DNA of 64,000 bases, taken from NCBI RefSeq assembly GCF_002723935.1, contig NZ_BEWM01000001.1:496001-560000 (forward strand), given 5' to 3'. The notes below the pieces were generated by a model. The model worked only from the letters and a program-made list of their open reading frames with translations, was not told the origin of the DNA and made no database searches. The position numbers and the translations under genes are program-made. The stretch comes from Gluconobacter cerinus. GTDB taxonomy: Bacteria > Pseudomonadota > Alphaproteobacteria > Acetobacterales > Acetobacteraceae. This document shows, piece after piece, positions 5,963 through 9,907 of this stretch (the stretch's first letter is position 1; each line of letters begins with the position of its first letter).

Positions 5963-6379
5963 ATGTCTGTCGTGCTTGATCCTTCCTCACTCCCTGCCGT
6001 CAACATTCTGGGGCTTGCCCAGTCTGGAGCTATTCTCCGTGCTGAACGGGAAACACCGCCCGATGGTGTTCCTGCGTTCATCACAAGAGAAGGATGGGAC
6101 GAGCTTGTTGCCGCCCACGCCGCAGAACATGATACGCCGCACACCATCGTGCTTCCGGCTCTCGAAAAAGCCGTAACGCGACTCTTGGCCCATGCCGCTC
6201 AGGCGGCGTCTGAAGAAGGCGGGACTGCTCCCGTCGTCAGCCTTGAAAGCGATCTTTTCCCGAGCGACAGGACTTTGATTCTCGCCTTCGTCCGTGATGA
6301 AACGCACCCTGTTGCCTGCACACTTATCGGAACGGCACACCAACTCGCAGTCGTTCTACGCTCGGCAACGTCAGTATAA
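5963..6379 (+). CDS. Conserved-looking hypothetical protein
   Basis: A 138-residue soluble protein with no signal peptide or membrane segment. It is mildly acidic, with alternating hydrophobic and Ala-rich helices and a hydrophobic C-terminal strand (CTLIGTAHQLAVVL). I recognise no motif. It starts at ATG 5963, 25 bases after a strong terminator, so it has its own promoter or is transcribed poorly. Its last three codons overlap the 3' end of the convergent fliJ-like gene (6371-6379). The position beside fliJ-fliI leaves open a flagellar accessory role, but nothing in the protein shows this. Confidence 0.65.
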   Translation: MSVVLDPSSLPAVNILGLAQSGAILRAERETPPDGVPAFITREGWDELVAAHAAEHDTPHTIVLPALEKAVTRLLAHAAQAASEEGGTAPVVSLESDLFPSDRTLILAFVRDETHPVACTLIGTAHQLAVVLRSATSV

Positions 6380-6796
6380 GGCCCTCTGACGCAGCGCCAG
6401 TTCATCCAGAGCGGCTTGCTCCTTACGGAGAGCGAGATAATTCATCTCAAGCCGCTGCTTATCCTGCAGTTTCTCAACAGCTTTTAGAGCTGCCTGAGCC
6501 ATTAGTAGAGCCGAACGAAGACAATCCCGATCGAGTGCTGCCTCCCGGCAAAGCTCCTGCGCGTCAGCGATCGCACGCTGGCCAACGGGCAACCAACGGC
6601 TGAATGCTTCTACTGCATCGTCATCAGCCTGTGGATCTGACGCCAGCCCCTGCTCCTGAATCAGGAGCAGATGGGCCTTGCTCAACACTGCTTCAGCAGC
6701 AGTCTCGCGCGCTACTGCTTCGCCAAACGCTTTCTCAACCACCTCGAGTTCATGGCGCCGCAGGCGCTTGAGCGTATCCAAGGGCATCTGCTTCAT
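6371..6796 (-). CDS. fliJ: FliJ-like flagellar export chaperone
   Basis: A 141-residue, almost entirely alpha-helical protein with long charged helices, as expected for FliJ, the antiparallel coiled-coil stalk that sits in the FliI ATPase ring and promotes export of flagellar rod, hook and filament subunits. FliJ sequences diverge strongly, so the call rests on length, coiled-coil character (KLQDKQRLEMNYLALRKEQAALDELALRQ region) and its place directly after fliI. ATG 6796 is preferred over ATG 6811 because GGAG lies eight bases before it. It overlaps the end of the convergent hypothetical gene. Confidence 0.75.
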   Translation of the reverse strand: MKQMPLDTLKRLRRHELEVVEKAFGEAVARETAAEAVLSKAHLLLIQEQGLASDPQADDDAVEAFSRWLPVGQRAIADAQELCREAALDRDCLRSALLMAQAALKAVEKLQDKQRLEMNYLALRKEQAALDELALRQRALY

Positions 6797-6816
6797 TTTA
6801 CCTGCTCCCATTGTGT

Positions 6817-8196
6817 CTAGGCCTCGGCATTCACAATGCTGGAAAGCTGTTCAAACGCTTCCGCACAGTTAGACCGTTCGCTCTTGCCTTGAGAAAGAAA
6901 CTCTTCAAGCCTGGGCATAAGCCGCACAGCCTCATCGACGTCCGGCTCCGTTCCAGCCTTGTACGCCCCCAGACGAATCATATCGGCCATCCGTTCATAG
7001 GTTGCCATGGTCGCCCGCGCCTGCTTCGTGAGCCTGTTTTCCTCAGCTGAATTACATCCCGGTACGGCACGTGACAGAGACCGAAGAACGTCAATCGCGG
7101 GGTAACGCCCCTGCTCACCGATCCGCCGATCCAACACAATATGTCCGTCGAGAATTCCACGAACGGCGTCTGCAACCGGCTCGTTATGATCGTCACCTTC
7201 CACAAGCACAGTGAACAGGGCGGTAATCATGCCTTCTCCCGGATAACCAGGCCCGGCGCGTTCCAGCAATCGCGGCAGTTCAGCAAAAACAGATGGAGGA
7301 TAGCCACGCGTGGCAGGAGGTTCGCCAGCTGACAGACCGATCTCACGCAGGGCCATGCAATAACGGGTCACACTATCCATTAGCAAAAGTACGGATTTAC
7401 CCTGATCACGAAAGTGCTCTGCAATCGCCATACCCGCAACGGCAGCATCCCGACGCATCAACGGCGGGGCATCTGATGTGGCAATGACCACCACACTCCG
7501 CGCCAGCCCCTCAGCCCTCAGATCGTCTTCAATGAATTCACGAACTTCACGGCCGCGCTCACCGACCAGTGCAATGACCGCCACATCGCAGTTGGCACCG
7601 CGCGCCAGCATGGACAGCAGAGTGGATTTTCCGACCCCAGACCCGGCAAACAATCCCAGCCTCTGACCACGCCGACAGGTTGTAAACGCATCGAGCGCCC
7701 GCACTCCCAAATCTATGCGCTCTCCAAGCCGTGCCCGCGTTGCAGCGTTTGGAGGTGCGGCACTGACAGGCTGTTGCTGGAATGCCGGCGCTAATGGCCC
7801 CTTCCCGTCGATCGGCATCCCGAGGGGGTCCACAACTCTTCCAAGCCAGCTCTCATTCACACCCAGACCGGCAGACTGACACCCACTCAAAGAAATACGC
7901 GCCTCACACCCAGGCCCAATCCCTTCAAGGCTACCAAAAGCCATGACCCGGGCGTGTGCATTATGAAACCCTACAACCTCAGACTGTATCGACACTCCAG
8001 AACGTGCCTTCACGTTAATTCTGTCACCGATAGAAACGAGTCCCTCAAGGCCGTGAATGGTCATGCACAACCCCGTTACATCCCGAACAACTCCGGTTGC
8101 ACCGTCAACGTGCAGGGATGAGAGCTTTTCGAGAAGGCTCTTCAACCCGCCTTTTCCCTGGATTTTCTGAGGATTTCCGAGGTGTGATGTCATCAA
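6817..8196 (-). CDS. fliI: Flagellum-specific ATP synthase (type III export ATPase)
   Basis: A 459-residue F1-beta-like ATPase that energises the flagellar type III export gate at the cytoplasmic base of the basal body. Walker A is GLFAGSGVGKSTL near residue 180, Walker B is LLLMDSVTRY, and the FliI/YscN signature GEPPATRGYPPSVF is present. The N-terminal beta-barrel and nucleotide-binding domain are complete. The first residues fit FliH/membrane contact. Its stop lies 20 bases before the fliJ start, so the two are one unit. It is divergent from a CtrA-family regulator, and a near-consensus CtrA box lies in the shared upstream region. No other flagellar gene is in the window. Confidence 0.95.
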   Translation of the reverse strand: MMTSHLGNPQKIQGKGGLKSLLEKLSSLHVDGATGVVRDVTGLCMTIHGLEGLVSIGDRINVKARSGVSIQSEVVGFHNAHARVMAFGSLEGIGPGCEARISLSGCQSAGLGVNESWLGRVVDPLGMPIDGKGPLAPAFQQQPVSAAPPNAATRARLGERIDLGVRALDAFTTCRRGQRLGLFAGSGVGKSTLLSMLARGANCDVAVIALVGERGREVREFIEDDLRAEGLARSVVVIATSDAPPLMRRDAAVAGMAIAEHFRDQGKSVLLLMDSVTRYCMALREIGLSAGEPPATRGYPPSVFAELPRLLERAGPGYPGEGMITALFTVLVEGDDHNEPVADAVRGILDGHIVLDRRIGEQGRYPAIDVLRSLSRAVPGCNSAEENRLTKQARATMATYERMADMIRLGAYKAGTEPDVDEAVRLMPRLEEFLSQGKSERSNCAEAFEQLSSIVNAEA

Positions 8197-8217: not shown

Positions 8218-8232
8218 TTAACAAACCCTGAA
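8218..8232. promoter_or_regulatory. Near-consensus CtrA box upstream of fliI and ctrA
   Basis: TTAA (8218-8221), seven bases, then TGAA (8229-8232): seven of eight positions of the CtrA consensus TTAA-N7-TTAA. It lies in the 150-bp divergent region, 22 bases before the fliI start and about 115 before the regulator start. The site type is established in Caulobacter; binding here is inferred. Confidence 0.45.
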
Positions 8233-8346
8233 CACGCACCCTTTAATGAAGCAATGATGAAAATTTTACGCTTTTTGATTTGTATCTATCGACAAACACA
8301 ACTCTGGGTAGTAACCATTGCTTCACCAATCCGGGAGTTGAGAAAC

Positions 8347-9087
8347 ATGCGTATCCTTCTTGTCGATAGCGATCTTCAGGCCGCAGCCCATCTGTCTCAG
8401 ACCCTTCGTACGGCTGCCTTTACCGTCGATCATACGTCCTCTGGCGAGGAAGCAATCGAGATGCTCCGGCATTACGATTATGATCTGATGGTGCTGGAAC
8501 TGATGCTGAACGATATCGAAGGTTACGATGTCATCCGCCGTGTCCGCGCAGCCCGGATTACGACGCCCGTTCTCGTTCTCTCTGCGCTTCTCCGTCCCCA
8601 GGCTAAAATCCGTGCCTTCTCGATGGGTGCCGATGACTACATGACAAAGCCTTATGACTCAGGCGAGCTTGTTGCCCGCCTTCAGGCCGTCATGCGCCGC
8701 TCTCGCGGCTTTTCCGAACCTTGCCTGCGCATTGGTAATCTGGAACTGGACCTGAACGGGAAAAACGTCACTGTTGAGGGTAATCCCCTGCACCTGACGG
8801 GCAAGGAGTACGCCATTCTGGAGCTTCTGGTTATTCGGAAAGGCTCTGTCCTGACCAAGGATGCTTTTCTGAATCATCTTTATGGCGGCATTGATGAGCC
8901 TGAGATGAAGATCATCGATGTCTTCATCTGCAAACTTCGCCGCAAGCTTCAGAAAGCAGGGGCCAGCAATCTCATCTCTACAGTCTGGGGACGTGGCTAT
9001 ATTCTGCGTGAAGAAACAGCGGCCGAGCCCATGCCCGCTTCTGTCAGCCCAATGACCAGAGCCGTATCTGAACTGACAGTGGCCTAA
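8347..9087 (+). CDS. ctrA: CtrA-type response regulator with Glu in place of the phosphoacceptor Asp
   Basis: A 246-residue OmpR-family response regulator with receiver domain about 1-115 and winged helix about 123-223. The DNA-binding half is near-identical to CtrA, the alphaproteobacterial cell-cycle and flagellar master regulator (LTGKEYAILELL, FLNHLYGG, KIIDVFICKLRRKL). The receiver is altered: residue 51, the Asp in Caulobacter CtrA, is Glu (GAA, 8497-8499, in VLELMLND), and the second acidic pocket residue is Ser8. Switch residue S79 and K101 remain. ATG 8347 is chosen over ATG 8254 because it matches the family N-terminus and has GGGAG upstream. It diverges from fliI. Phosphorylation-independent activity is inferred. 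Confidence 0.9.
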   Translation: MRILLVDSDLQAAAHLSQTLRTAAFTVDHTSSGEEAIEMLRHYDYDLMVLELMLNDIEGYDVIRRVRAARITTPVLVLSALLRPQAKIRAFSMGADDYMTKPYDSGELVARLQAVMRRSRGFSEPCLRIGNLELDLNGKNVTVEGNPLHLTGKEYAILELLVIRKGSVLTKDAFLNHLYGGIDEPEMKIIDVFICKLRRKLQKAGASNLISTVWGRGYILREETAAEPMPASVSPMTRAVSELTVA

Positions 9088-9097
9088 AACAGACTCT

Positions 9098-9907
9098 TCA
9101 GGATTGGTACCAGTCCGGCCGGATCGTCACACCATGATTGACCGGCCCGTGACCAGCGCCATATCCCGGCGCATTTGAGAGCGCGAGCCGTAGATAGGCA
9201 TGAGCCCGCCGCACCGCCGCTTCAAGATCCATGCCCTGTGCAATGCCCGTCGCAATGGCACTGGCAAGTGTACAACCCGTTCCATGAGTATGACGCGTAT
9301 GAATTCGCGTTGCGCGGTGTACGTACTCATCTCCATTTGGGAAGACCAGAAGATCCTCGAGATCCTCTCCCGTCATATGCCCCCCCTTAAGCAGAACGGC
9401 CGCGGCTCCCCGCTTTTGCAGGATATGAGCTGCCCGACGCATTCCTGCCAGATCATGAATCACCTCACCCGTCATGACTTCTACTTCGGGAATATTGGGA
9501 GTCACGATTAAGGCCCGGGGCAAAAGACGGGTCATCACGGCATCTACGGCGTCATCAGCCAGAAGAGCTGACCCGCTGGTGGACACCATGACCGGGTCAA
9601 GCACCAAAGGGAGATGCGTATGACTTTCCAGTTCGTCAGCAACGGCATGAACAATGTCTGCTGTCGCGAGCATTCCGGTTTTGCAGCAATCTGCACCCAG
9701 ATCATCAAGAACGACCTGCATCTGCTGCCGAACAAACGCCGGGGAAACAGCCTCCACCCCAAAGACGCCGAGTGTATTTTGTGCCGTCAGAGCTGTAAGG
9801 GCGCTCATTCCAAAGCCCCCCAGAGCGGTAATGGTCTTCAGGTCGGCCTGAATCCCGGCCCCACCACCGGAGTCACTTCCCGCTACTGTCAGAACCCGGC
9901 CACGCAT
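9098..9907 (-). CDS. thiD: Hydroxymethylpyrimidine/phosphomethylpyrimidine kinase
   Basis: A 269-residue ribokinase-fold enzyme that phosphorylates HMP and HMP-P to HMP-PP for thiamine synthesis. The N-terminal VAGSDSGGGAGIQADLKT block and the GTGCTLASAIA motif with its catalytic Asp/Gly anion hole are diagnostic. VLLKGGHM is the other substrate-side signature. Length is typical. It starts three bases after the glmM stop, so it is the last gene of that unit. The 3' end of a probable thiC lies at the far right edge of the window, so thiamine genes are not clustered. It is convergent with the CtrA-type gene, 10 bases apart. Confidence 0.95.
   Translation of the reverse strand: MRGRVLTVAGSDSGGGAGIQADLKTITALGGFGMSALTALTAQNTLGVFGVEAVSPAFVRQQMQVVLDDLGADCCKTGMLATADIVHAVADELESHTHLPLVLDPVMVSTSGSALLADDAVDAVMTRLLPRALIVTPNIPEVEVMTGEVIHDLAGMRRAAHILQKRGAAAVLLKGGHMTGEDLEDLLVFPNGDEYVHRATRIHTRHTHGTGCTLASAIATGIAQGMDLEAAVRRAHAYLRLALSNAPGYGAGHGPVNHGVTIRPDWYQS

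Follow-up and report, generated by a model that had tools for sequence, protein, structure and literature searches.

CtrA is the textbook case of a regulator that needs a phosphorelay to be active. In Caulobacter, the C-terminal Ala-Ala of CtrA is required for turnover of the protein. Rem of Rhizobiales is an OmpR-type flagellar pseudo-receiver regulator that is thought to be independent of phosphorylation. Engineered CtrA in which Asp51 is replaced with Glu (D51E) has been used as a phosphomimetic, and a Caulobacter CtrA allele in which the three final residues are exchanged has been called stabilized (PMC12186491). The full site of CtrA is described as TTAA-N7-TTAA, and in R. sphaeroides CtrA controls the fliI gene of the fla2 set (PMC6180460). 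Glu is the commonest substitute (26%) in the receivers that lack the phosphoacceptor aspartate (PMC4395418). What makes pseudo-receivers active is called a mystery in a 2025 perspective, which also poses the question of how they are switched on and off (PMC12632262). Missing chpT in Rhodospirillales has already been reported (Brilli et al., 2010, PMC2877005; Tomasch et al., 2021, PMC8116508), in passages that do not mention the phosphoacceptor. No report of a CtrA with Glu51 in acetic acid bacteria was found in the titles and abstracts of the open-licence literature searched, a scope outside which most subscription papers fall.

The locus described here lies in a window of Gluconobacter cerinus DNA, which is the whole stretch of 64,000 nt that was analysed. 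The ctrA orthologue (8347..9087, + strand) encodes a protein of 246 residues and is the sole copy found in the genome. A longer alternative frame starts at 8254; the start at 8347 matches the MRxLL start of relatives. The protein begins with MRILLVDSDL and carries D7, S8, D9, E51, S79, and K101 in the translation of 8347-9087. The receiver domain (residues 1-118, 8347..8700, + strand; PF00072 at 3-112, 80.6 bits) is without the phosphoacceptor and without the second Mg2+ acid. Glu51 (codon GAA, 8497..8499, + strand) replaces the phosphoacceptor Asp51, and Ser8 (codon AGC, 8368..8370, + strand) replaces the second Mg2+-binding acid, which is D8 in 31/31 ChpT-positive rows of the rate set described below. 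The conserved receiver Ser/Thr is kept as Ser79 (8581..8583, + strand) and the conserved pocket lysine is kept as Lys101 (8647..8649, + strand); in the acetic-acid-bacteria clade, these positions are S/T in 38/38 rows and K/R in 37/38 rows, respectively. The DNA-binding domain spans residues 125-223 (8719..9015, + strand) with the OmpR-type PF00486 at 145-220, and the C-terminal tail (residues 221-246, 9007..9084, + strand) ends with VA and has no terminal AA. The first-pass annotation had described a CtrA-type regulator with Glu51 and Ser8, and both the translation and the codons agree with it.

The top NCBIfam model among 93 was CtrA (Rhodobacterales), with 329.8 bits that fall under the cut-off of 350 of a model built for another order. 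In the genome from which the window was taken (3.58 Mb, 99.96% complete), the protein scored 530.3 bits, and the runner-up was an OmpR-type protein with 144.9 bits and 37% identity. A second ctrA with D51 in the same genome, which had been named as a reason to doubt the reading, was ruled out by this difference. The Gluconobacter protein is taken as CtrA by descent from its close match, its CtrA-type DNA-binding domain, and its place beside fliI. By residue content, it groups with the aspartate-less receivers, where the phosphoacceptor Asp is replaced in a recognisable receiver.

The gene is similar to that of the canonical CckA-ChpT-CtrA system in its sequence, its place beside fliI, its DNA-binding domain, and the CtrA-type box upstream, but it differs in that the phosphoacceptor and the second Mg2+ acid are missing and neither ChpT nor CckA was detected in the genome. 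As in engineered CtrA D51E, Glu stands in place of Asp51; the Gluconobacter form, in contrast, is natural and clade-wide and has a changed pocket (S8) with no relay left. It is also similar to atypical OmpR/PhoB regulators such as ChxR in the Glu replacement, the lost second acid, the kept Lys, and a presumed phosphorylation-independent dimer. For Gluconobacter CtrA, unlike regulators of the ChxR type, a classical phosphorelay ancestor and apparent intermediates can be traced among living relatives. Rem is similar in being OmpR-type, flagellar, and thought to be free of phosphorylation, and it differs in that the Gluconobacter protein is CtrA by descent.

The divergent neighbour of ctrA is fliI, the gene of the flagellar export ATPase (6817..8196, - strand; PF00006, ATP-synt_ab, 287.7 bits; PF18269, T3SS_ATPase_C, 75.1 bits), and fliJ lies downstream of fliI (6371..6811, - strand; PF02050, FliJ, 42.8 bits). 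These Pfam domains confirm both flagellar neighbours that had been assigned earlier. The other flank of ctrA is a phosphomethylpyrimidine kinase gene (9098-9907, - strand). Divergent fliI was found beside ctrA in 26/26 genomes of the genus group g1, the genus code that includes Gluconobacter and that seems to include Neokomagataea-like genomes, and in 22/33 ChpT-positive rows; the other 11 rows have none within the fetched flank.

An open and full-length ctrA match was found in all 26 g1 genomes, and all of them carry E51, encoded by GAA in 23 and by GAG in three. E51 was also found in 10/10 named Gluconobacter records (L107-L116), including G. oxydans, G. thailandicus, and G. japonicus; these records are partly the same genomes as the g1 set and are not an independent sample. 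A sequencing error at codon 51, which had been considered at first, was ruled out by this constancy. Among the best 80 of 542 loci, the nearest named relatives of the gene were those of Gluconobacter (L107-L116), followed by Neokomagataea, Tanticharoenia, Brytella, Acidomonas, Acetobacter musti, and Asaia, with Bombella further away.

Residue 51 was compared in 139 rows that cover Acetobacteraceae together with six other Alphaproteobacteria. Asp was found in 63 rows, Glu in 58, Arg in seven, Ala in four, and Asn in two; Thr, His, and Ser each occur once, and two rows are unaligned there. The second copies of G277 and G032 (G277b and G032b) were excluded from the counts. The E51 rows belong to 19 Acetobacteraceae genus codes, and 51/58 of them are in genera of the main acetic-acid-bacteria clade. 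The remaining seven rows are from g105, g55, and g65, where the CtrA tree puts the g55 and g65 rows outside the main clade. The first-pass annotation had asked whether E51 is clade-wide among Acetobacteraceae; a family-wide E51 was ruled out by D51 in 33/33 ChpT-positive rows, and E51 is instead concentrated in the acetic-acid-bacteria clade.

A single E51 origin for the 38-row main clade together with G129 was weakly rejected (AU p 0.036 against one clade), in a test that was made after the tree had been seen. The row L082 (G129, g105) carries E51 outside the main clade with no ChpT or CckA detected, and its E51 is perhaps a second origin. The genus code g55 appears at two places on the CtrA tree, which is probably a long-branch effect, and E51 origins were therefore not counted further. 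Asp51 was observed within the E51 clade in L089 and L090 (g84) and in L092 and L094 (g71); all four rows have Arg101, which also occurs in six E51 rows. Extra CtrA-like copies with degenerate receivers were observed in G082 (L269-L272; five matches in total), G277 (L208), G032 (L237), and G069 (L268). The ctrA matches of Bombella dulcis (L146/L204), G110 (L199), G405 (L213), and G292 (L216) were in two aligned pieces, which reflect either disrupted genes or errors of assembly. With the thresholds applied, no ctrA match was found in G078 and G164 (g54), G125 and G191 (g101), or G148 and G204 (g124); the two g54 genomes each had a single first-look ctrA candidate.

The relay was searched for in the same genomes. 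ChpT-positive denotes a stand-alone PF10090 match of at least 28 bits (one reading was 28.0), and matches inside kinases of 500-1200 aa were not counted. The genome of the window had nine first-look ChpT candidates, and none of them passed at E 0.001. No match above the cut-off was found in any of the 26 g1 genomes, where G012 had 20.4 bits within a 636-aa frame that fall under the cut-off. The ChpT of Acetobacteraceae scores low with PF10090 (28-64 bits) and a much diverged ChpT could escape this search, yet a ChpT was seen in each of the 29 genomes that have CckA.

The search for CckA was led by a sequence that we take to be CckA. In the tree of the 32 kinase matches, a starred branch separates the CckA group, with 12 Acetobacteraceae proteins and seven proteins of other families, from both hybrid kinases of the genome of the window, one of which is a long branch of unsure place. 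The profile of the twelve Acetobacteraceae CckA proteins scored 386.8-653.4 bits in 29/80 genomes, all of which are ChpT-positive. The threshold for CckA-positive, 386 bits, was picked after the score table had been seen. With this profile, the best score in the genome of the window was 317.7 bits and the best among the 48 ChpT-negative genomes was 355.3 bits (G147). Over the 80 genomes, 29 have both ChpT and CckA, 48 have neither, three have ChpT only (G073, G124, and G302, with 344-351 bits for the CckA profile), and none has CckA only. The sole Hpt domain above the Pfam cut-off in the genome of the window sits in CheA (Hpt, H-kinase_dim, HATPase), and a second, weak Hpt match has 16.6 bits in a 1317-aa frame. 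Neither cckA nor chpT was thus detected, and the absent PF10090, the lack of a CckA-like scorer, and an Hpt domain only in CheA support the earlier proposal that control by the CckA-ChpT relay has been lost. Gluconobacter CtrA stands apart from phosphorelay-controlled regulators because it has no Asp51 and no ChpT or CckA was detected.

Across Acetobacteraceae, D51 is found in 33/33 ChpT-positive rows and in 9/76 ChpT-negative ctrA rows (Fisher 5e-20, with kinship not taken into account). When the g1 rows, 26 in number, are set aside, the ChpT-negative rows consist of nine with D and 41 without. The ChpT-negative row of G134, which has no residue 51, was omitted from this table, and the ChpT verdicts and the links from loci to genomes were transcribed by hand into the analysis script. 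All five pocket features (an acid at 7, an acid at 8, D51, S/T79, and K101) are kept in 32/33 ChpT-positive rows and in 3/76 ChpT-negative rows; G147, G062, and G079 have the pocket intact with no detected ChpT. G029 is counted as ChpT-positive with D51, yet the one ctrA match in this genome is degenerate, with APD at 7-9 and V101. On the CtrA tree, from which the trait columns had been removed, ChpT absence requires at least five changes and E51 requires nine. The tree kept 115/139 rows, where rows with fewer than 180 aligned residues and 18/26 g1 rows were dropped. Only three independent pairs are available on starred branches, and the sign test therefore has no significance (p 0.25 at best). 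Over random pairings, ChpT loss was accompanied by non-D51 in 2.6 pairs and opposed by it in 0.0, with no difference in 0.4.

Changes were counted by parsimony on the tree for 38 rows of the main ChpT-less clade (eight from g1) and for 31 ChpT-positive rows, a set that leaves out G029 and one row that is too short or absent from the tree. The receiver has 7.25 changes per column in the ChpT-less rows versus 4.05 in the ChpT-positive rows, and the DNA-binding domain has 3.79 versus 3.68. The ratio of receiver to DNA-binding domain is 1.92 versus 1.10, which gives a ratio of ratios of 1.74 (column bootstrap 95% 1.42-2.15). Without ChpT, the receiver evolves faster and the DNA-binding domain is at normal constraint. 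The most accelerated columns are A14 and H15 (helix 1), N55, A80, S31, R89, and S8, with strong acceleration at helix 1, the second Mg2+ acid, and the loops of the pocket. Helix 1 of receivers is the docking place of kinases and phosphotransfer proteins. The pocket columns and helix borders were defined from general knowledge of receivers. Six receiver columns combine conservation in the presence of ChpT with fast change in its absence, and with that pocket set, five of them are at the phosphorylation pocket (Fisher 0.005 over 38 conserved columns). The acceleration is partly general because parts of the receiver other than the pocket and helix 1 are also faster.

In the 38-row clade, an acid is kept at position 7 in 37 rows and at position 8 in three, residue 51 is acidic in 36 (Glu in 32), and S/T79 and K/R101 are kept as given above. 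This decay pattern is as would be expected if phosphotransfer chemistry were dispensable but a contact among Glu, Ser, and Lys were useful. Structural constraint or a passenger Glu also fits to a degree, because E51 changed more than most of the formerly conserved columns: it changed four times against a median of one over the 38 formerly conserved receiver columns, of which 26 changed less and nine changed more.

A candidate CtrA-type full site, TTAA-N7-TGAAC with one mismatch, is predicted between fliI and ctrA (8218..8233, + strand), 129 nt upstream of the ctrA start. A TTAA-N7-TTAAC site with at most one mismatch starts at -132 to -125 in 21/26 g1 genomes, and, apart from the pair of 8-base bins in which this cluster falls, no bin of the 300 bp upstream of ctrA exceeds two sites. 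Such a site lies within 200 bp upstream in 22/25 g1 loci (the locus of the window is not counted; two are at -169) versus 2.2 expected from simple shuffles. Among relatives with fliI alongside, it was found in 3/13 ChpT-negative loci versus 0.8 expected and in 2/22 ChpT-positive loci versus 0.8 expected. The half sites of the box stay in g1 and the spacer varies. The 64,000-nt window has three such matches, which is no more than chance, and exact TTAA-N7-TTAAC sites show no enrichment over the genome (nine at seven places versus 12 in the reversed control). Exact full sites were observed between flgD and fliF (L339 near 1501; G000:C5:132901-132916) and between an ABC-transporter gene, which reads as ftsE-like, and a zinc-ribbon gene (L340 near 1501; G000:C5:291763-291778).

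The alignments of the genus also show a block upstream of ctrA (8289..8340, + strand), with TCGACA, GGTAGTAACC, and the ribosome site in this order, that is more conserved within the genus than the rest of the fliI-ctrA intergenic region. The block may be a promoter or a leader. A search for an RNA leader upstream of ctrA gave no Rfam family above its gathering score and no base pair that was changed on both sides. GANTC is the CcrM methylation site, and it occurs 114 times in the whole window versus 304 expected from shuffles, as if avoided.

The C-terminal AA is present in 0/26 g1 proteins, 18/30 ChpT-positive Acetobacteraceae proteins, 1/21 proteins of the rest of the clade, and 0/6 ChpT-positive outgroup proteins. 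A loss of CtrA turnover in Gluconobacter would be only a guess, because its VA ending is also found in 6/30 ChpT-positive Acetobacteraceae proteins. The first-pass annotation had proposed abundance or degradation as the control that replaced the relay. Its degradation part is not favoured by the contrast between 0/26 and 18/30, a weak argument in view of the 0/6 in the outgroup, and abundance set through transcription fits better with the conserved CtrA-type box.

The mechanism that we consider likeliest, though with confidence only a little above even, is a phosphorelay-free CtrA with a natural D51E, in a lineage without CckA-ChpT, that would be always on and set by transcription. The lineage would have lost the CckA-ChpT phosphorelay. 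Glu51 would imitate phospho-Asp by bonding to Ser79 and Lys101, and this bonding may hold the receiver in the dimeric, DNA-binding state, with CtrA on whenever it is made. The output would be set by ctrA transcription through the CtrA-type box between fliI and ctrA, which would join autoregulation with flagellar control, and not by phosphorylation. That E51 renders native CtrA active is inferred by analogy with the engineered mutants. Several observations count against this mechanism: the exact sites are not enriched, the independent ChpT losses are few, the conservation of E51 is below that of most columns, the receiver acceleration is partly general, and the pockets of G147, G062, and G079 are intact. 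Published results also count against it. Overexpressed CtrA D51E slightly lowered gene-transfer-agent transfer in R. capsulatus, the exchange of D for E alone is often insufficient for activation (PMC4395418), and the phosphomimic idea has been described as disproved for two pseudo-receivers (PMC12632262).

A rather unlikely alternative is that Glu51 is a passenger, where the dimer would be constitutive through the alpha4-beta5-alpha5 face and residue 51 would contribute little, as for ChxR. The constitutive DNA binding of ChxR was not abolished when its Glu was changed to Asp or Ala (PMC4395418), which also counts against the likeliest mechanism. Within the 38-row clade, D51 in four rows and A51 in two, together with the 26 columns that changed less than E51, favour a passenger. 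The same holds for D96, D97, R111, R117, and R118, which are invariant in the clade and which we presume to lie on the dimer face. Against it, E51 changed only four times, in comparison with 11, 16, and 17 times for pocket columns 8, 55, and 80 that are invariant or nearly so with ChpT. The Arg101 of all four D51 rows also looks as if positions 51 and 101 were coupled, which is a weak point as Arg101 occurs in 6/32 E51 rows. It is improbable that another input, such as a ligand, an anti-activator, or another modification acting on the receiver, replaced the relay. The receiver is still constrained with 15 columns unchanged in the 38-row clade, and Rem, an atypical flagellar regulator in Agrobacterium, is acted on by an anti-activator, but no candidate partner is found next door, where the flanks are fliI/fliJ and the phosphomethylpyrimidine kinase gene. 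A ctrA decaying on its way to loss is very improbable: collapsed receivers in other ChpT-less genera (R51 with lost K101 in g92 and g120), split or truncated copies in some relatives, and the missing matches in g54, g101, and g124 would agree with it, but the match is open and full-length throughout g1, the constraint on the DNA-binding domain equals that seen in ChpT-positive relatives, and the upstream CtrA-type box holds its place.

The relatives can be placed in an apparent order. G034, G338, and G413 carry E51 with E7, D8, D9, and K101 intact and the C-terminal AA in 3/3. Position 8 in g1 is Ser in 25/26 genomes and Asn in one. The rows of g92 and g120, with R51 and no K101, are set off by a branch with 2.05 changes per column. 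We tentatively propose, as a possibility that we hold to be less likely than not, that acetic acid bacteria keep the stages of a phosphorelay regulator turning autonomous. Loss of the relay would have come with D51E at a stage when the rest of the pocket and the Ala-Ala were intact (G034, G338, and G413); decay would then have reached the second Mg2+ acid, the helix used for docking, and the Ala-Ala, and a CtrA box upstream of ctrA would have been gained (Gluconobacter); and in other ChpT-less lineages the whole receiver would have collapsed. Glu would be a gateway for surviving the loss of the kinase.

Gluconobacter is an industrial organism (PMC7567684). These bacteria would offer natural intermediates for asking what activates pseudo-receivers. 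A whole clade that carries the laboratory phosphomimetic allele, and in which the relay is undetectable, suggests that CtrA is able to work in the absence of its relay.
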